64,000 nucleotides of DNA. Origin: Dyella sp. RRB7. Lineage in GTDB: Bacteria; Pseudomonadota; Gammaproteobacteria; Xanthomonadales; Rhodanobacteraceae. Location of the stretch: NCBI RefSeq assembly GCF_022761115.1, contig NZ_JAKWJS010000001.1:868001-932000 (forward strand), in the 5' to 3' direction. Under the pieces are notes generated by a model. The model saw only the letters and a program-made list of their open reading frames with translations. It was not told the origin of the DNA and did no database searches. The number at the start of each line of letters is the position of its first letter. The first letter of the stretch is position 1. This document shows positions 5,399 through 38,600 of this stretch, piece after piece. A program made the position numbers and the translations under genes.

Positions 5399-8300
5399 GT
5401 GACCCAACCCATACTCAGCCCCGAACTCCCCACCGGTGTCGAGCCGGCCCGTGCGCGCATCACCGCCGCCTGGCTGCGCGACGAAACCGAAGCGGTCAAC
5501 GACCTGCTGGCCCAGGCCACCTTGCCGCCGGTCGAGCGCGAAAAGGTGATCGACCTGGCCGCCGACCTGGTGTCGCGCGTGCGCCTGCGCGCCAAGGACC
5601 AGAGCGCGGTCGAATCCTTCATGCGCCAGTACGACCTGTCCTCGGAAGAAGGCGTGCTGCTGATGTGCGTGGCCGAAGCCTTGCTGCGCATCCCCGACAA
5701 GGGCACCGCCGACAAGCTGATCCGCGACAAGCTGGGCGATGCCGACTGGAAGAAGCACCTTGGCCAGAGCGAGTCGCTGTTCGTCAACGTCTCCACCTGG
5801 GGCCTGATGCTTACCGGCAAGTTGGTGACGCTGTCGGAAGAAACCCGCCACGACTTCACCGGCGCGCTGCGTCGCCTGGTCGGCCGCGCGGGCGAGCCGG
5901 CCATTCGCCTGGCCGTGCGCCAGGCCATGCGCATCATGGGCCACCAGTTCGTGATGGGTCGCACCATCGGCGAAGCGCTGGACCGTTGCGCGCAGAAGGA
6001 ATACGCGGTGTACCGCTATTCCTACGACATGCTCGGCGAATCGGCGCTCACCAGCGAAACCGCCGAGCGCTACCAGCAGGATTACCGCAACGCCATCGCC
6101 GCGATCGGTTCGCGCGGTCCGTTCGCCAACCACACCGATGCGCCGTCGATCTCGGTGAAGCTGTCCGCGCTGCATCCGCGCTACGAAGTGGCCAAGCGCG
6201 AGATCGCCCGCCGCGACCTCACCGCCAAGCTGCTGGAGCTGTCGCAGCTGGCGATGAAGTACGGCATCGCGCTGTCGGTCGATGCGGAAGAAGCCGATCG
6301 CCTGGAACTGTCGCTGGACATCATCGGCGACGTGTTCGCGCATCCCTCGCTCGAAGGCTGGAATGGCCTCGGCATCGTGGTGCAGGCCTACTCCAAGCGC
6401 ACGCCGTTCGTGATCGACTGGCTGATCGAAACCGCGCGCGCCAGCCGCCGCCGCTGGTACGTGCGCCTGGTGAAGGGCGCCTACTGGGACGCCGAGGTCA
6501 AGCGCGCGCAGGAAAACGGCCTGGCCGGCTATCCGGTGTATACGCGCAAGCCGAACACCGACGTGTCCTACCTCGCCTGCGCCCGCAAGCTGTTCGATGC
6601 CGGGGTGGAACTGATCTACCCGCAGTTCGCCACGCACAACGCGCACACCATCGCCGCCGTGCATCACACCGCGCAGGGCCGTCCGTACGAGTACCAGCGC
6701 CTGCACGGCATGGGCACGGACCTCTACGCCGAAGTGATCGGCAAGCAGAACCTCAACGTGCCCTGCCGCGTGTACGCGCCGGTGGGCACGCATGAAGACC
6801 TGCTGCCCTACCTGGTGCGCCGCCTGCTGGAAAACGGCGCCAACACCAGCTTCGTCAACCGCGTGGTCGACGAAACGCTGCCGGTGCGCGAACTGGTCGC
6901 CGATCCGTGCGAAACGGTGCGCTCCTTTGCCTCCATCCCCCACCCGCGCATTCCGCTGCCGGTGAATCTCTATGGTGACAATTCTGCGCAAGCGCAGAGT
7001 TCAAATTTCGTATCCAGGAAGAATTCCATGGGCGTCAACTTCTCCAACGACAACGAACTGAAGGCCCTCGCCGAGGCCATCCAGGCCAAGTCCGGCCCGT
7101 GGACCGCCGAACCGCTGGTGCCGGGCGCCCGCAGCACCGGCGCCACCGTGCAGGTGACCAACCCGGCCGACCGCCGCCAGGTGGTGGGCAGCTACGTCAC
7201 CGCCGACAGCGCCACCGTGGACAAGGCGCTGGCCAACGCCGTCGCCGCCCAGCCCGGCTGGGATCGCCTGCCGGCCGCCAGCCGCGCCGCGATTCTTGAA
7301 CATGCGGCGGAACAACTTGAAGCGCGTCGCGGCGAGTTCATCGCCCTGTGCGTGCGCGAGGCGGGCAAGAGCCTGCCCGACGCCGTCGCCGAAATCCGCG
7401 AGGCCGCCGACTTCCTGCGTTACTACGCCGCCATGTCGCGCCGCCTGTTCGGTCATCCCGAGCAGTTGCCCGGCCCCACCGGCGAGAGCAACCAGCTGTT
7501 CCTGAACGGTCGCGGCGTGTTCGTGTGCATCAGCCCGTGGAACTTCCCGCTGGCGATCTTCCTGGGCCAGGTCAGCGCCGCGCTCGCCGCCGGCAACGCC
7601 GTGATCGCCAAGCCGGCCGAGCAGACCAGCCTGATCGGCCATGCCGCGGTGAAGCTGCTGCACGACGCCGGCGTGCCGGCCGAGGTGCTGCAGTACCTGC
7701 CGGGCGATGGCGCCACCGTCGGCGCCGCGCTCACCCGCGACCCGCGCGTGGCCGGCGTGGCCTTCACCGGCTCCACCGAAACCGCCTGGGCGATCAACCG
7801 CGCGCTGGCCGCGCGCAATGCGCCGATCGCCGCGCTGATCGCCGAGACCGGCGGCCAGAACGCGATGATCGCCGACTCCTCCGCGCTGCCCGAGCAGATC
7901 GTCAAGGACGTGATCGCCTCCGCCTTCCAGTCCGCCGGCCAGCGCTGCTCGGCCGCGCGCGTGCTGTTCGTGCAGGAAGACATCGCCGACAAGGTGTGCG
8001 ACATGCTCGCCGGCGCCATGGCCGAGCTGAAGGTGGGCGACCCGGGCCAGCTGTCCACCGACGTGGGCCCGGTGATCGACGAGGACGCCAAGAAGATCCT
8101 GGTGGACCACGCCGCGCGCATGGACCAGGAAGCGAAGAAGATCGGCGAGGTGAGGCTGGACCCCGCCGCCACCGGCAACGGCACCTTCTTCGCGCCGCGC
8201 GCCTATGAGATCCCCTCGCTGTCCACGCTCACCCGCGAAGTGTTCGGCCCGGTGCTGCACGTGATCCGCTGGAAGGGCGACGAGCTGCAGAAAGTGGTCG

Positions 8301-8587
8301 ACGAGATCAACGCCACCGGCTACGGCCTCACGCTGGGCATCCATAGCCGCATCGACGACACCGTGGAGTTCATCCAGAGCCGCGCCCGCGTGGGCAACTG
8401 CTACGTCAACCGCAACCAGATCGGCGCGGTGGTCGGCGTGCAGCCGTTCGGCGGCGAAGGCCTGTCGGGCACCGGCCCCAAGGCCGGCGGCCCGCACTAC
8501 CTGCTGCGTTTTGCCGGCGAGCGCACGCTCACCATCAACACCACCGCCGCGGGCGGCAACGCCTCGCTGCTGACCATCGGCGAATAA
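5399..8587 (+). CDS. putA: Bifunctional proline dehydrogenase / L-glutamate-gamma-semialdehyde dehydrogenase
   Basis: About 1062 residues from GTG 5399 (VTQPILSPELPTGVEPARAR). The FAD-dependent proline dehydrogenase domain spans about residues 130-480 and includes AIALSVDAEEADRLELS-like core strands and YVRLVKGAYWDAEVKRAQEN. The NAD-dependent aldehyde dehydrogenase domain spans about 590-1050, with general base E816 in ETGGQNAMI, catalytic C850 in SAGQRCSAAR, and VAFTGSTETAW. It converts proline to glutamate with substrate channelling. The length and absence of a ribbon-helix-helix N-terminus mark a non-regulatory PutA. The GTG has no strong ribosome binding site, so the start is the least certain part. 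Confidence 0.95.
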   Translation: MTQPILSPELPTGVEPARARITAAWLRDETEAVNDLLAQATLPPVEREKVIDLAADLVSRVRLRAKDQSAVESFMRQYDLSSEEGVLLMCVAEALLRIPDKGTADKLIRDKLGDADWKKHLGQSESLFVNVSTWGLMLTGKLVTLSEETRHDFTGALRRLVGRAGEPAIRLAVRQAMRIMGHQFVMGRTIGEALDRCAQKEYAVYRYSYDMLGESALTSETAERYQQDYRNAIAAIGSRGPFANHTDAPSISVKLSALHPRYEVAKREIARRDLTAKLLELSQLAMKYGIALSVDAEEADRLELSLDIIGDVFAHPSLEGWNGLGIVVQAYSKRTPFVIDWLIETARASRRRWYVRLVKGAYWDAEVKRAQENGLAGYPVYTRKPNTDVSYLACARKLFDAGVELIYPQFATHNAHTIAAVHHTAQGRPYEYQRLHGMGTDLYAEVIGKQNLNVPCRVYAPVGTHEDLLPYLVRRLLENGANTSFVNRVVDETLPVRELVADPCETVRSFASIPHPRIPLPVNLYGDNSAQAQSSNFVSRKNSMGVNFSNDNELKALAEAIQAKSGPWTAEPLVPGARSTGATVQVTNPADRRQVVGSYVTADSATVDKALANAVAAQPGWDRLPAASRAAILEHAAEQLEARRGEFIALCVREAGKSLPDAVAEIREAADFLRYYAAMSRRLFGHPEQLPGPTGESNQLFLNGRGVFVCISPWNFPLAIFLGQVSAALAAGNAVIAKPAEQTSLIGHAAVKLLHDAGVPAEVLQYLPGDGATVGAALTRDPRVAGVAFTGSTETAWAINRALAARNAPIAALIAETGGQNAMIADSSALPEQIVKDVIASAFQSAGQRCSAARVLFVQEDIADKVCDMLAGAMAELKVGDPGQLSTDVGPVIDEDAKKILVDHAARMDQEAKKIGEVRLDPAATGNGTFFAPRAYEIPSLSTLTREVFGPVLHVIRWKGDELQKVVDEINATGYGLTLGIHSRIDDTVEFIQSRARVGNCYVNRNQIGAVVGVQPFGGEGLSGTGPKAGGPHYLLRFAGERTLTINTTAAGGNASLLTIGE

Positions 8588-8597
8588 GCGCGACCAT

Positions 8598-8621
8598 GGG
8601 CCGGCGCCAACGCGCCGGCCC
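8598..8621. terminator. GC-rich hairpin after putA
   Basis: A perfect 9-bp stem, GGGCCGGCG / CGCCGGCCC, with a 6-base loop lies 11 bp past the putA stop and 15 bp before the next start. There is no T-tract, so it may be only an mRNA-stabilising or attenuating hairpin and not a full terminator. The downstream gene could be partly co-transcribed. Confidence 0.45.
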
Positions 8622-8635
8622 GATCGGGAGATGCC

Positions 8636-9379
8636 ATGCGGCGTGCCCTGCTTCACGCAATGATGCTCGTGGCGGCACTGCTCGCCGCGCCACTGCATGC
8701 CGCCCAGGCCAGTGATGACCAGCAGCGCTTCGAAGCTGCTCTTCAATTGGGCCCGTCGCCCAGCGTGCGCTACCTGGATGCCGCCGGCCGCCCATTGAGC
8801 TACACCGCGTTCGCCCAGCAACTGGGCGAGGGCAAGAACTACAGCAGCACGCGCGACAGCCAGGCCGGCACCGCGGTGCTGCGCATTGCCGGCCCTGCGC
8901 CGGGTCATCGCAACATCCGCATGGCCTTCGGATGCGGCGACGTGTTTCCGCCCTTCGAATTACCCACCATCCAGGGCAACACGCAACGCCTCAGCGCCTT
9001 GCGCGGCCGCTACACACTGGTCAGCTTTTTCTTCGCCGAATGCGCCCCCTGCATCGCCGAGGTGCCGACGCTCAACGCCTACGCGCGCCAGCACGGCGAC
9101 ATGAACTTCATCGCGATCACCTATGAAGACGCCGCCACCGCCCGCCAGTTTGCGACGAGCCGCGGCCTCAGCTGGCCGGTGCTGCACGACGGCCAGGCGC
9201 TGATCGATGTGCTGGGCATCAGCATCTATCCCACCCTGATGCTGATCGATCCTTCCGGCCGCGTCGCCGGCGCCGCGGTAGGCACCGCGATGCACGACGA
9301 CCCGGCCAAGCGACTGGCCGAGCTCACCGGCTGGATCGAGCTGTGGCGGCAATCGGGCACGGGCTCGGGTTCGCTGTAG
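8636..9379 (+). CDS. Exported TlpA/AhpC-like thioredoxin-fold protein
   Basis: A 247-residue protein with a signal peptide (MRRALLHAMMLVAALLAAPLHA). The mature part ends in a thioredoxin-fold domain from about residue 100: DVFPPFELPTIQGNTQRLSA, then FFFAECAPCIAEVPTLNAYA with the redox pair C136-x-x-C139, and the cis-proline region ISIYPTLMLIDPSGR. The first 95 mature residues do not match a domain I know. It probably acts as a periplasmic thiol-disulfide reductant or cytochrome/copper maturation helper, but the partner is unknown. A GGAG ribosome binding site lies 6-8 bases before the ATG. It converges with the downstream phosphatase-like gene. Confidence 0.75.
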   Translation: MRRALLHAMMLVAALLAAPLHAAQASDDQQRFEAALQLGPSPSVRYLDAAGRPLSYTAFAQQLGEGKNYSSTRDSQAGTAVLRIAGPAPGHRNIRMAFGCGDVFPPFELPTIQGNTQRLSALRGRYTLVSFFFAECAPCIAEVPTLNAYARQHGDMNFIAITYEDAATARQFATSRGLSWPVLHDGQALIDVLGISIYPTLMLIDPSGRVAGAAVGTAMHDDPAKRLAELTGWIELWRQSGTGSGSL

Positions 9380-9394
9380 CAACCCGGCGCTGGC

Positions 9395-10201
9395 TCAATA
9401 AGGGGCAGGTTCGATCAGCGCATGCTCGGCCGTGCACTGCGGCCCGGCGTTTGATGGCGCAACCCTGCGGTAATCGGCCAGCTCCGCGCGCGCGGCGGCC
9501 AGTTGTGACTGGAACGCGCCAGACGCATGCAGCACCGCCACCACCGCCGCGCCGTTCATGGCGCCAGCCTCGATGGCGCTGAGATTGTGCACGCCACACA
9601 CCACGCGGCTGTCGGCAAAAGCTCGCGCGCGCAGCAGCAGGTCGGTGGCGCGATCCGGCGCCAGCTCGGTCAGCACCAGGCCCACCGCCCAGCCACGCGT
9701 GGCATGGCCGGAGGGGTAGTCGAAGCTGCGCGCCAGCGGCGAGGCCGACTGGCAGGTGGCGCCGGGATCGATCAGGAACGGCCGCTGGCGCTGGTTGGCC
9801 TGCTTGGCCGGCCCGGTGGACGCATCGGCGGTACGGCTGGTCTGGTCGATCAGGGCCGCCAGCTGCGGCAGCCGGGTGGCATCGAGCGGCACGCCCATGG
9901 CGCAACTGAAATCCGCCATCAGCTTGGGCGTGGCGTAGTCCACGTCCTGCTGGGCCAGCGCCCAGCGCGGCGTGCCCTCCAACGGGCGGGTGGCGCGGAA
10001 CACTTGCCGATCGGCCTCGTAACGCGCGGAACCGGGCTTGGGTGCGGCTGGCAGCAGCACCGCGGTCTGCAGGTCGGCAATCGGTGCCGCAGCTGCCGAA
10101 ACAGGCGCCTTGGGCGAGGTCTGCACCGGCGTGCAACCCACCGCCAATGCCAGCACCAGCAACGGCATCCGCTGTAACGATCGAGCAGAAACAGGTTTCA
10201 C
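9395..10201 (-). CDS. Class A nonspecific acid phosphatase-like (PAP2 superfamily) lipoprotein
   Basis: From GTG 10201 the frame gives 268 residues with a lipoprotein signal ending LALAVGC (C23); an ATG at 10168 is an alternative. The PAP2/class A phosphatase signature is K133-x6-R140-P141, then PSGH at 163-166 (YPSGHATRGW), then SR-x5-H (S198, R199, H205). The signature normally ends with Asp four residues after the nucleophilic-site His (HxxxD). Here that position is A209 (HNLSA). The protein would be a periplasmic phosphomonoesterase or lipid phosphatase of altered activity. It converges on the thioredoxin gene and is divergent from the AraC regulator. Confidence 0.8.
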   Translation of the reverse strand: MKPVSARSLQRMPLLVLALAVGCTPVQTSPKAPVSAAAAPIADLQTAVLLPAAPKPGSARYEADRQVFRATRPLEGTPRWALAQQDVDYATPKLMADFSCAMGVPLDATRLPQLAALIDQTSRTADASTGPAKQANQRQRPFLIDPGATCQSASPLARSFDYPSGHATRGWAVGLVLTELAPDRATDLLLRARAFADSRVVCGVHNLSAIEAGAMNGAAVVAVLHASGAFQSQLAAARAELADYRRVAPSNAGPQCTAEHALIEPAPY

Positions 10202-30631: not shown

Positions 30632-33374
<2,743 letters not shown>

Positions 33375-35331: not shown

Positions 35332-35453
35332 CCCGCTGGCATCGCGCTAGCGGTCGCCAACGCGCTCCCTTTATGCTCCCGTGAAGAATGGCTTCGAAAC
35401 AGCCAGCGGGCGGACGCATCCTGCGGCCGCTCCGGGGATCAGGGGGCAAGATA

Positions 35454-36287
35454 TTGAGCGCAACATCTTCGACCGGCAGCCTTGCCTGCGTCGGTATTGG
35501 CATCATGCTGGGTTCGCATATCACGCCGCTGGCGCGTAGCCATATCCAGACCGCTGACGTGGTGTTCGTTGCCGTCTCCGATGGCATCGTGGAGCTGTGG
35601 CTCAAGGAGATGCACGCGGACGTGCGCAGCCTCCAGCCGTTCTATGCCGAGGGCAAGCGACGCACCCAGACCTATCGCGAGATGGTCGACGCCATCCTGA
35701 CCGAAGTGCGTGCCGGCAAGCGGGTGTGTGCGGTGTTCTACGGCCATCCTGGCGTATTCGCCTGGGCGCCGCACCAGGCCATCAAGATGGCGCGCGCGGA
35801 GGGCTACCAGGCGCATATGGAGCCCGGCATCTCCTCCGAGGACTGTCTCTACGCCGACCTTGGCATCGACCCGGGCAGCATCGGCTGCCAGCATTTCGAT
35901 ACTACCCAGTTCATGCTTTACCGACGGCAGGTCGATCCCAGCGCGTGGCTGATCCTGTGGCAGGTTGGCCTGGCCGGCGAACAGACTGGCCATCGCTTTG
36001 CCACCGGCCCCGCCCACCGTCAGGTACTGGTGGATGTGCTGGCCCGCAACTATCCAGGGGACCATGAGGTCATCGTCTACCGGGCGGCCACGCTGCCCAC
36101 ACAGGCGCCACGCATGGAGCACATGCCGCTGGCGCGGCTGGTCGGGGCCGATCTCGACGGCGCCGATACGCTGGCGGTGCCCCCATCCCGCCCGCTGCAG
36201 GACGACCCCGAGATCCAGGCCCGGCTGGCGGCGCTGGACGACGCAACAGGGGTAGCCAGCGGTGCGCCAGGGCCGATTCCGGCGTAG
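35454..36287 (+). CDS. Borosin-type peptide backbone N-methyltransferase (split, SonM-like; tetrapyrrole-methylase fold)
   Basis: About 277 residues from TTG 35454, with AGGGGG eight bases upstream; the next upstream in-frame starts have no ribosome site. The fold opens LACVGIGIMLGSHITPLARS and continues with the SAM-binding loop YGHPGVFA (96-103), MEPGISSEDCLYADLGIDPG, FDTTQFMLYRRQVDPSAWLI and HEVIVYRAATLPTQAPRMEH. These features, especially EPGISxE, FxxTQFM and LPxQAPRxE, match the proteobacterial SonM and fungal OphMA borosin enzymes, not siroheme or cobalamin methylases. Y64, R70 and Y74 fall where the family has its catalytic Tyr-Arg-Tyr set. It should methylate backbone amides of the precursor encoded 116 bp downstream. 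Confidence 0.88.
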   Translation: MSATSSTGSLACVGIGIMLGSHITPLARSHIQTADVVFVAVSDGIVELWLKEMHADVRSLQPFYAEGKRRTQTYREMVDAILTEVRAGKRVCAVFYGHPGVFAWAPHQAIKMARAEGYQAHMEPGISSEDCLYADLGIDPGSIGCQHFDTTQFMLYRRQVDPSAWLILWQVGLAGEQTGHRFATGPAHRQVLVDVLARNYPGDHEVIVYRAATLPTQAPRMEHMPLARLVGADLDGADTLAVPPSRPLQDDPEIQARLAALDDATGVASGAPGPIPA

Positions 36288-36403
36288 ACATTCTTCGCTT
36301 CATTCAAGGTTATGATCGCCTTCTCCCGGTACTCCCCTGGGGAGAGGGGAAAGGCAAGGCGGGGGGGTGTCGTCTTTTTCAGACCATCAGGGGATTACAA
36401 GCC

Positions 36404-36742
36404 ATGTCGAGCATCATTGAGTTTCTGGAGCGGATGGGCGCGGACGCGCAATTGCGTCACGCCTCGCGGGAAGAGATTGCGGCGGCACTGGAGGAGACGC
36501 AGGTCGACTCCGCCCTGGGCGCTGCCATCATCGCCCGAAGCACTACCGATCTTTACTCCTTGCTGGATCTGAAGCCCATGTTCTGCACCCTCGAGAACCC
36601 GGGCCGCGATAAGGAGAAAGAGAAGGAAAAGGAAAAGGAGAAGGAGGGCGAGGACGGCGGTGGCAAGGACAAAGGCGACAAGAAAAAGAGCGCGCTTACT
36701 TTTTCCGTCGTTGGCCGCTCCACACTTAACGCACTAGCTTGA
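36404..36742 (+). CDS. Candidate split-borosin precursor peptide (112 aa)
   Basis: An ATG at 36404 is preceded by AGGGGA at 9-base spacing. Residues 1-65 (MSSIIEFLERMGADAQLRHA, then SREEIAAALEETQVDSALGA) are helical. Their size and pattern (FLExxGxDAQLRxA...) match borosin-binding leader domains of split precursors. A Cys-containing stretch (SLLDLKPMFCTLENPG) follows, then residues 69-95 form a Lys/Glu/Gly/Asp-only linker, and residues 96-112 (SALTFSVVGRSTLNALA) form a hydrophobic tail that could be the core to be N-methylated. Which segment is the core is inference. The gene lies directly downstream of the methyltransferase. No peptidase or transporter gene is nearby. Confidence 0.75.
   Translation: MSSIIEFLERMGADAQLRHASREEIAAALEETQVDSALGAAIIARSTTDLYSLLDLKPMFCTLENPGRDKEKEKEKEKEKEGEDGGGKDKGDKKKSALTFSVVGRSTLNALA
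36609..36645 (+). repeat. Hexanucleotide microrepeat encoding the Lys-Glu run
   Basis: A pure purine tract of AAGGAG/AAAGAG/AAGGAA units encodes alternating Lys-Glu within the precursor. Because the unit is six bases, slippage would lengthen or shorten the linker in steps of two residues without breaking the frame. Confidence 0.7.
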
Positions 36743-36749
36743 TTAGCTC

Positions 36750-38600
36750 ATGCTCCGGCTTGGCAAAACGGGTCGGAGGTTGCTAGGGGGCATCATCGCT
36801 CTCACGGGCATCTGCGTGGGCATGGCCGCACAGGCCATGCCCGCTTCCGATCCACCGGAGCAGCTTCTGCAGCGCGCCTTCAACATCAAGACGTCGAATC
36901 ACGATGAATTTCTCCGGATACTCGCGAAACTCCGCCTGGTAGCCGATAGCCTGCCACTCGACGAGCAGTGGTCACTGCGCTATCTCGAAGCCTGGCAGGC
37001 GGTTTTTGAAGGGAACGTATCCCGGGCCATCACTTCATTGCGGGCGATTTCCGAGCAGGCCCCCAGTCCTGCGCTGCGCCTGCGTGCCATGGCCACGATG
37101 GTCAATATCTTCGGCTTTGCCCATCGCTACGAAGAAGCATTCATCCAGCTCAATCGCCTGACCGAACTGCTACCCCAGGTTTCAGACCAGGGGGCACGCT
37201 ATGCCGCTATGGGTGAAGCCGCGCAATTCCTTATCGGCTCGCACCATTTCAAGCAGGCCATCGAATACGCCGACCAGATGCTGCAAAACATTCCGCCGGG
37301 CAAGAGTGCTTGCCACGCGGTTCGCTACAGGCTTCAGGCGCTCCTCCATGGCGGCAGCGCGCAGCTGACGCCTGCCGAGTTCCAGCAGGGCATCGACCTG
37401 TGCACGAAAGACAACGATTCCGTCTACGTGAACGCCATTCGTGCCGACATGGCGGCGCTCCTCCTGCAGAAAGGTCGTGCCACTGAGGCCATCCATGAGT
37501 TGGAGGAGCATTATGCCGAAGTGGCGGCTTACAAGTACGCCGCCCAGATGCAGTATTCCGACATGCTGCTGGCAAAAGGCTATTTCAGCCTGGGTGATCT
37601 TTCCAAGGCGCGCCAGTACGCGCTCGCCGTAGTCGATGGCAATGTGGAGAACGCTTACAGCGAAGCGCTGAGCCAGGCCTATGAGCTGCTGTATCAGATC
37701 GATAACCGGCTCGGTCACACCAGAGAAGCGCTTGCCTACCATGAAAAGTACATGGAGGCGGACAAGGGCTACCTCAGCGACGTCACCGCTGGTGCGCTGG
37801 CCTATGAAACCATCAAACAGCAGGTGCAAAGCCAGAAGAACCAGGTTGACGTACTCAACCGCCAGAACCAGATCCTGCAGCTGCAGCGCAAACTGGATCA
37901 CAAGGCCATGGAAACCAGCAGGCTGTACATCGCCCTACTGCTCAGCGTGATGGCCTACATCGCATTCTGGCTGTTGCGCACCAAGCGCTCGCAGCTGCGT
38001 TTCAAGCGGCTGGCCACGCGTGACAGCCTTACCAATATTTCCAGCAGGCAGCATTTCGTCGATGAGACGGAGTCCTCGCTGCGCCAGGCGGCGAAATCCA
38101 CGCGCAGTGCGTGCCTGATCCTGATGGACCTGGATCATTTCAAGCAGGTCAACGACACGCATGGTCACGTGATCGGCGACCTTGTGCTCAAGCGCGCGGT
38201 CGCCGCCTGCCAGCACCACCTGGGCCGCCATGACATTTTTGGCCGGTTTGGCGGCGAAGAGTTCGCCATCCTGATGCCCAACTGCGGTGCGACGCAGGCA
38301 CGCGAGCGCGCCGAACGCCTGCGCCAGGCCATTGCCGCCACGCCACTGTGGGGCGAGACGCGAAGCGTGGTGATTACCGCCAGCTTCGGCGTGGCCTCGA
38401 CCGATCGCAGCGGCTACGAACTGCGCCAGCTGATGATCGATGCCGACAACGCGCTGTATCAGGCCAAGCGCGAGGGCCGCAATCGCGTGGTCTACGAGGA
38501 CGGCAACGATCCCGTCGCGCCCACGCCGACCAACGTACAAGAGCAGGCCGTCGCCGTGCAGCCGGCCGACCTGCCGCGCCGGCACCAGCCCGCGGTCTGA
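36750..38600 (+). CDS. TPR-containing membrane diguanylate cyclase (GGEEF)
   Basis: A 616-residue protein. It has a signal/anchor (MLRLGKTGRRLLGGIIALTG onward, cleaved near AQA), a periplasmic helical-repeat sensor of TPR type (about residues 35-370, e.g. AYEELFIQL-like RYEEAFIQLNRLTELLP and ALAYHEKYMEADKGYL), a coiled coil (QSQKNQVDVLNRQNQILQLQ), one membrane helix (LYIALLLSVMAYIAFWLL), and a GGDEF domain. The active site is FGRFGGEEFAILMP, and LILMDLDHFKQVNDTHGHV carries the GTP and metal residues, so it should make cyclic di-GMP. The RxxD product-inhibition site is absent (GRHD). It starts 7 bp after the precursor stop, so coupling is likely. Its role in the borosin locus is unknown. Confidence 0.9.
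   Translation: MLRLGKTGRRLLGGIIALTGICVGMAAQAMPASDPPEQLLQRAFNIKTSNHDEFLRILAKLRLVADSLPLDEQWSLRYLEAWQAVFEGNVSRAITSLRAISEQAPSPALRLRAMATMVNIFGFAHRYEEAFIQLNRLTELLPQVSDQGARYAAMGEAAQFLIGSHHFKQAIEYADQMLQNIPPGKSACHAVRYRLQALLHGGSAQLTPAEFQQGIDLCTKDNDSVYVNAIRADMAALLLQKGRATEAIHELEEHYAEVAAYKYAAQMQYSDMLLAKGYFSLGDLSKARQYALAVVDGNVENAYSEALSQAYELLYQIDNRLGHTREALAYHEKYMEADKGYLSDVTAGALAYETIKQQVQSQKNQVDVLNRQNQILQLQRKLDHKAMETSRLYIALLLSVMAYIAFWLLRTKRSQLRFKRLATRDSLTNISSRQHFVDETESSLRQAAKSTRSACLILMDLDHFKQVNDTHGHVIGDLVLKRAVAACQHHLGRHDIFGRFGGEEFAILMPNCGATQARERAERLRQAIAATPLWGETRSVVITASFGVASTDRSGYELRQLMIDADNALYQAKREGRNRVVYEDGNDPVAPTPTNVQEQAVAVQPADLPRRHQPAV

Follow-up and report, generated by a model that had tools for sequence, protein, structure and literature searches.

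The stretch of DNA considered here (the window; 64,000 nucleotides from the genome of Dyella sp. RRB7) carries three consecutive genes on its + strand, which encode a borosin-type backbone alpha-N-methyltransferase (35454..36287), a separate precursor peptide (36404..36742) and a membrane sensor with a tetratricopeptide repeat (TPR) part and a GGDEF domain (36750..38600). A first-pass annotation had placed a split-borosin locus of two genes at this site. Both genes are real and lie where they were put, but the third gene was overlooked, as was another cassette elsewhere in this genome. The window locus is a split borosin of the established kind, with an unusual repeat-derived tail, and it sits within a widely conserved precursor-sensor cassette.

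The methyltransferase

Read from a TTG start, the methyltransferase open reading frame (ORF) encodes 277 residues; an alternative ATG at 35388 would give 299. All four motifs that had been quoted for the enzyme (YGHPGVFA, EPGISSED, FDTTQFM and LPTQAPRMEH) are present in its translation. When PDB sequences were searched with phmmer, the enzyme matched SonM with an E-value of 1.1e-76 and fungal OphMA-type borosin chains with E-values of 3e-47 to 1e-43. The catalytic residues Y58, R67 and Y71 of SonM, together with F99 of its cofactor site, correspond to Y64, R70, Y74 and F102 of the window enzyme, and these letters are identical in 81 of the 81 rows of an alignment comprising the window enzyme and those of 80 named loci. 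The SonM match and the retained Tyr, Arg and Tyr bear out the earlier claim of a borosin-type enzyme.

The alternative is that the gene encodes a methylase of the cobalamin or siroheme type and no borosin enzyme. Such a methylase would share its Pfam family, TP_methylase (the tetrapyrrole-methylase fold), with the window enzyme. Against this, the best cobalamin enzyme (CobI-type) reached an E-value of only 0.002 in the search that returned SonM, and the NCBIfam tetrapyrrole enzymes all fell far below their cut-offs among the matches listed. The enzyme grouped with SonM and other borosin-type enzymes in a 28-row tree, apart from the CysG and RsmI of its own genome; the exact root of this tree is unsure, its outgroup branches being long (9-10 changes per column). 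The clustering with cobalamin or siroheme methylases that the first-pass annotation had named as the result that would speak against it was therefore not seen. Together with the invariance of the catalytic residues, these results make a tetrapyrrole methylase almost certainly the wrong reading, and we hold it to be nearly certain that the enzyme and the precursor encoded by the next gene are a genuine borosin pair of the SonM/SonA type. The enzyme is predicted from its sequence to methylate the backbone alpha-nitrogens of the core.

The precursor and its borosin-binding domain

The precursor, a protein of 112 residues recognised by its domain model and by the corresponding ORFs of relatives, begins with a borosin-binding domain (BBD; residues 1-54, 36404..36565, + strand). 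Five helices are predicted in the BBD, at residues 3-13, 15-18, 22-31, 36-43 and 47-53, and the blocks of the structure model over residues 1-50 have predicted local distance difference test (pLDDT) values of 91-96. The best structural matches found with Foldseek were SonA chains, with weak E-values. This agrees with the original description of a separate precursor with a leader-like N-terminal helical domain. A BBD-type ORF was present in 106 of the 114 related stretches searched, so that the BBD accompanies the enzyme in relatives and the missing co-occurrence that had also been proposed as a counter-indication was not found. Judging from the model, the BBD should dock on the methyltransferase, and the two proteins may assemble as a dimer of heterodimers, as is characteristic of the SonM/SonA type. 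No signal peptide was apparent in the window precursor when judged by eye.

The region between the enzyme and precursor genes showed no excess of RNA folding (z 0.39), and a palindromic stretch within it occurs once in the genome. A scan of the locus for promoters and terminators returned nothing on the + strand, which is compatible with a single transcript but no proof of one. In four other loci the precursor appears to have two or more segments resembling a core, or a BBD that is duplicated in part (L076:8393-8713, L073:7965-8228, L102:7956-8288 and L090:8387-8761).

The position of the core

In SonA, the BBD spans residues 1-53, the linker residues 54-61 and the core residues 62-71, with methylation at residues 63 and 65 in the accounts consulted (PMC8429565, PMC11285071). 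From its position relative to these methylated residues, and from a conserved Pro66, the proposed core region of the window precursor is residues 56-68, LKPMFCTLENPGR (36569..36607, + strand). Of 78 precursors that precede a sensor, 66 have Pro in column 66 and 40 have Gly in the following column. Relatives retain a short segment immediately behind the BBD with a terminal Pro, while the letters of the C-terminal tail vary. In the L201 precursor (within 7862-9331, - strand) about ten tandem DAAIIKGYA-like units follow immediately after the BBD, and by its look this is a multi-core borosin precursor; the placement of the units fits cores located directly after the BBD. From these sequence comparisons, the segment after the BBD at about residues 56-68 is the likelier core than the tail.

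The first-pass annotation had taken the Lys-Glu linker and hydrophobic tail as a pointer to a new core. The letters are there, but the linker is encoded by a tandem repeat of the hexanucleotide AAGGAG (six copies, 36611..36646, + strand), and since relatives vary at this place we regard it as a local repeat. Most relatives have an acidic tract after the proposed core where the window has a mixed Lys-Glu tract, and the net charge of the window tail is +2 against a median of -8, with at least +2 in 3 of the 77 others. Given the 6-bp origin of the linker, the acidic tract of most relatives and the variable tail, we rejected the linker and tail as the likelier core, although the tail may also be methylated. 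The tails of close Dyella relatives have retained a loose mutual resemblance. As the AAGGAG repeat lies in a coding region, the length of the Lys-Glu tract may differ between strains.

The TPR-GGDEF membrane sensor

The third gene starts 7 bases past the precursor stop and encodes 616 residues. Its N-terminus is a hydrophobic, signal-peptide-like stretch, which is followed by a predicted TPR superhelix (residues 33-321, 36846..37712), a membrane helix predicted by hydropathy (residues 391-409, 37920..37976) and a GGDEF domain (about residues 425-585, 38022..38504; also delimited as 422-579), all on the + strand. By hydropathy, 74 of 78 sensors have a hydrophobic N-terminus and all 78 have a membrane helix. 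Pfam matches to TPR are weak in the window sensor; its structure model is confident (mean pLDDT 88) and shows helical repeats as far as about residue 321 along with a long stalk. The cysteines C188 and C218 are invariant across 56 rows. Since the protein has these cysteines and a signal-peptide-like start, its TPR domain is probably periplasmic.

The GGDEF domain is matched in Pfam with an E-value of 2.7e-41, and its GGEEF signature (G501-F505) is intact and invariant across the same number of rows. By this signature the gene product is predicted to be a diguanylate cyclase. At the inhibitory site (residues 492-495, 38223-38234) the window sequence is GRHD, compared with RSxD as the consensus among relatives, with Arg replaced by Gly.

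Linkage of the sensor to the enzyme

In 76 of the 80 named loci the enzyme is followed, at a distance of no more than 4.5 kb, by the start of a same-strand sensor homologue of more than 300 residues, and in the remaining four the contig ends at most 1236 bases after the enzyme. Among 61 genomes, searches with the enzyme (E-values up to 1e-20) and with only the TPR part (E-values up to 1e-6) mark the same 40, with neither found in the other 21. For 54 of 59 enzyme genes there is a same-strand TPR gene no more than 5 kb away, and the rough chance of a gene lying that close to either TPR match in the window genome is 0.5%. These counts are non-independent, the genomes being taxonomically related.

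The linkage extends to more distant enzymes. In the taxonomic order of genome G405, 27 of 45 enzyme places were covered by the 26 stretches examined, and a sensor-type protein adjoins the enzyme in 25 of these stretches, with L201 as the exception. Nineteen of these proteins are GGDEF homologues aligned over 275-590 residues, five are TPR-histidine kinases (L194, L202, L220, L222 and L223) and L197 has a TPR part only. Profile searches detected a BBD ORF in 23 of the 26, with a weak match in L198 and L218 and none in L222. L166 and L167 have TPR-histidine-kinase hybrids, the former with a TPR-GGDEF protein in addition. Enzymes 67-77% identical to SonM (L184-L187) are followed by a SonA-like gene and then by a TPR-GGDEF gene; in L185 (6859-8589) the sensor gene is split over two frames, one with the TPR part and one with the GGDEF part.

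Some of the histidine-kinase sensors of L194, L202, L220, L222, L223, L166 and L167 have receiver and Hpt domains. Cassettes resembling those of Rhodanobacteraceae also occur on contigs labelled Candidatus Eremiobacteraeota and Bordetella (L071, L112 and L130), which are perhaps mis-binned.

Precursor-sensor pairs

Precursor and sensor are also paired where the enzyme gene is distant. A BBD precursor lies directly upstream of 12 of 14 enzyme-distant sensor genes (L204-L217; a fifteenth, a fragment at a contig edge, was left out), the exceptions being L206, with a broken BBD start, and L217, which shows none. The genomes concerned all have an enzyme elsewhere. Seven of these loci (L204-L206 and L209-L212) have retained neighbours of the window locus, from among hemB, an S53-type peptidase, a hydrolase and RND pump genes, and therefore represent the same genomic place without the enzyme. 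In a sensor tree these seven group with L063, which bears an enzyme.

By a scripted count, 77 of the 81 sensors of the named loci come after a precursor. In L104, L109 and L110 the precursor overlaps the chosen sensor start, and in L067 a second sensor trails the first. Two precursor-sensor pairs stand behind a single enzyme in eight loci (L070, L080, L082-L085, L088 and L096), while the two enzymes of L118 and of L120 represent two full cassettes. The order is precursor-sensor-enzyme in L150, L152, L155 and L188-L190, and L198 has the pair and the enzyme in divergent orientation. The second complete cassette of the window genome (4.08 Mb, 19 contigs) is L032 (G000:C12:2001-22000), with the enzyme at about 9333-10148, the precursor at 8930-9280 and the sensor from about 7155. 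Its enzyme is 61% and its sensor 41% identical to those of the window, and its core region differs (KLMQHPQSSQTGHEDE).

The gene at 31773-33374 of the window, which we take to encode an S53-type (sedolisin-like) peptidase, often lies beside the locus in Dyella, even where no enzyme is present, and nothing seen links it to precursor processing. In L143 (4535-5767) and L168 (9928-10996) a small ORF before the enzyme and an MFS-transporter-like ORF after it were seen by eye; this neighbourhood may point to export.

A possible peptide signal and its receptor

We know of no cellular role that has been assigned to bacterial split borosins. The frequent presence of a TPR sensor beside the precursor offers a direct and testable candidate function, and since in most relatives examined the precursor lies next to a membrane sensor that would make cyclic di-GMP (c-di-GMP), the modified peptide is suggested to be a signal. 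The methyltransferase would methylate backbone amides just after the BBD, at about residues 60-65 and from N to C as in SonA, and a protease would then free the methylated segment. The resulting peptide, methylated, protease-resistant and possibly membrane-permeant, could reach the periplasm or neighbouring cells, where it would bind the cognate TPR domain and alter c-di-GMP synthesis. That the three-gene cassette as a whole encodes a ribosomal peptide signal and its TPR receptor is, in our judgement, close to an even call, falling just on the doubtful side. A broader proposal, in which the entire class would be backbone-methylated pheromones with their own periplasmic Rap-like TPR receptors (acting through c-di-GMP or a histidine kinase), one enzyme would serve several pairs in trans, and N-methylation would replace an exporter by conferring permeance, we consider rather unlikely. 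Our confidence in both was lowered slightly, in the former case from even, because enzyme-precursor pairs without a sensor exist.

Several results weigh against a signalling role. Five of the 59 enzyme genes had no sensor nearby. Four of these (L224-L227) are extra enzyme copies in four Dyella genomes with an adjoining short precursor, which is without an acidic tail and intact in 4 of 4 by profile search, and with no match to the sensor. The fifth, L149 (G045:C16), has a SonA-like ORF just upstream and, farther upstream, a GGDEF-domain ORF in which no TPR match was seen. L201 has an enzyme and a precursor with no sensor in view, and for six more distant enzymes (L142-L145, L168 and L169) tblastn and visual inspection, with no domain search, showed no sensor among the neighbouring ORFs. 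Core and TPR distances had no partial correlation after controlling for BBD, GGDEF and enzyme (r 0.02, permutation p 0.33), while BBD distances did track TPR distances (r 0.54). A constant exporter or protease neighbour was not recognised, although no systematic search was made; the RND pump and the S53-type peptidase flank the Dyella locus with or without the enzyme but were detected among the 80 named loci just 6 and 9 times, respectively. Furthermore, TPR folds fit Rap no better than they fit unrelated proteins, and methylation, binding and signalling are all steps that we infer.

It is also conceivable, if unlikely, that the product is an ordinary borosin with another target and that the TPR-GGDEF protein is no receptor but only controls production or the biofilm state. 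A regulator linked to the cluster would co-occur in just the same way, and both the lack of core-TPR co-divergence and the sensorless enzyme-precursor pairs of L224-L227 and L201 would be expected of it. The pairing of precursor with sensor, however, persists in 12 of 14 cases without the enzyme gene, and the duplication of such pairs behind one enzyme is a closer association than a general regulator would predict. We find it quite improbable that the sensor recognises the intact precursor, or the BBD of the precursor, instead of a core released from it, with methylation tuning or ending the interaction. This would account for the BBD tracking the TPR part more closely than it tracks the enzyme after controls (r 0.54 and 0.35, respectively), yet the precursor has no signal peptide by eye where the TPR part is predicted to be periplasmic, and the BBD has the fold of the SonA BBD, which docks on the enzyme. 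Common descent can keep genes linked within a family, and the sensor is missing at some loci, as would be the case if the GGDEF gene were an operon neighbour by history only, with no functional link. We regard this as very improbable, since the genes remain linked where their order has changed, where the pair is divergently oriented (L198), where the enzyme has been lost and where the output domain has been replaced, and since the proximity would rarely arise by chance.

Comparison with known systems

The peptide-pheromone receptors of the Rap/RRNPP type are soluble cytoplasmic proteins. The window sensor differs from them in its signal-peptide-like start, its membrane helix and its GGDEF domain, in place of which other loci have a histidine kinase. 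An APPBP2 chain (26.8) and an APC/C chain (23.8) match its TPR part as well as Rap does, or better. By analogy the sensor would work like an RRNPP receptor without being a member of that group, as its hydropathy is not that of a soluble cytoplasmic protein.

Type IV borosins, by the 2021 definition as given in PMC8429565, have a separately encoded enzyme and precursor, as does the window locus. It likewise fits borosin class 3 in the Figure 1 legend of PMC11395268, in which BBD and core are in one protein and the enzyme is separate. This legend also defines the abbreviation GGDEF, its two occurrences there being the only ones in the main text, and therefore a GGDEF protein figures in one of the drawn borosin architectures. 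The legend does not tell which of the later types (V-X, 0 and XI; PMC11395268, PMC11285071) has it, and the window locus may belong to one of them. Our literature search returned no paper pairing a borosin with a diguanylate cyclase, and GGDEF only as that legend abbreviation, although the definitions of types V-X may describe the pairing. The main text of the SonM/SonA paper (PMC8429565) does not mention GGDEF or diguanylate.

The closest parallel is with SonM/SonA of Shewanella oneidensis, which as described in PMC8429565 is a type IV system with a separate methyltransferase and BBD precursor. SonM is about 50% identical to the window enzyme, with the catalytic residues retained, and the five-helix BBD spans the same residues in SonA and in the window precursor. 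The two precursors differ in the letters of the core and in their length, since the window precursor has 112 residues and a charged tail of about 45 residues past the proposed core, whereas the SonA core ends at residue 71. The TPR-GGDEF gene of the window cassette is shared by the SonM-like loci, and an established biochemical model is therefore usable for the study of the precursor and its sensor.
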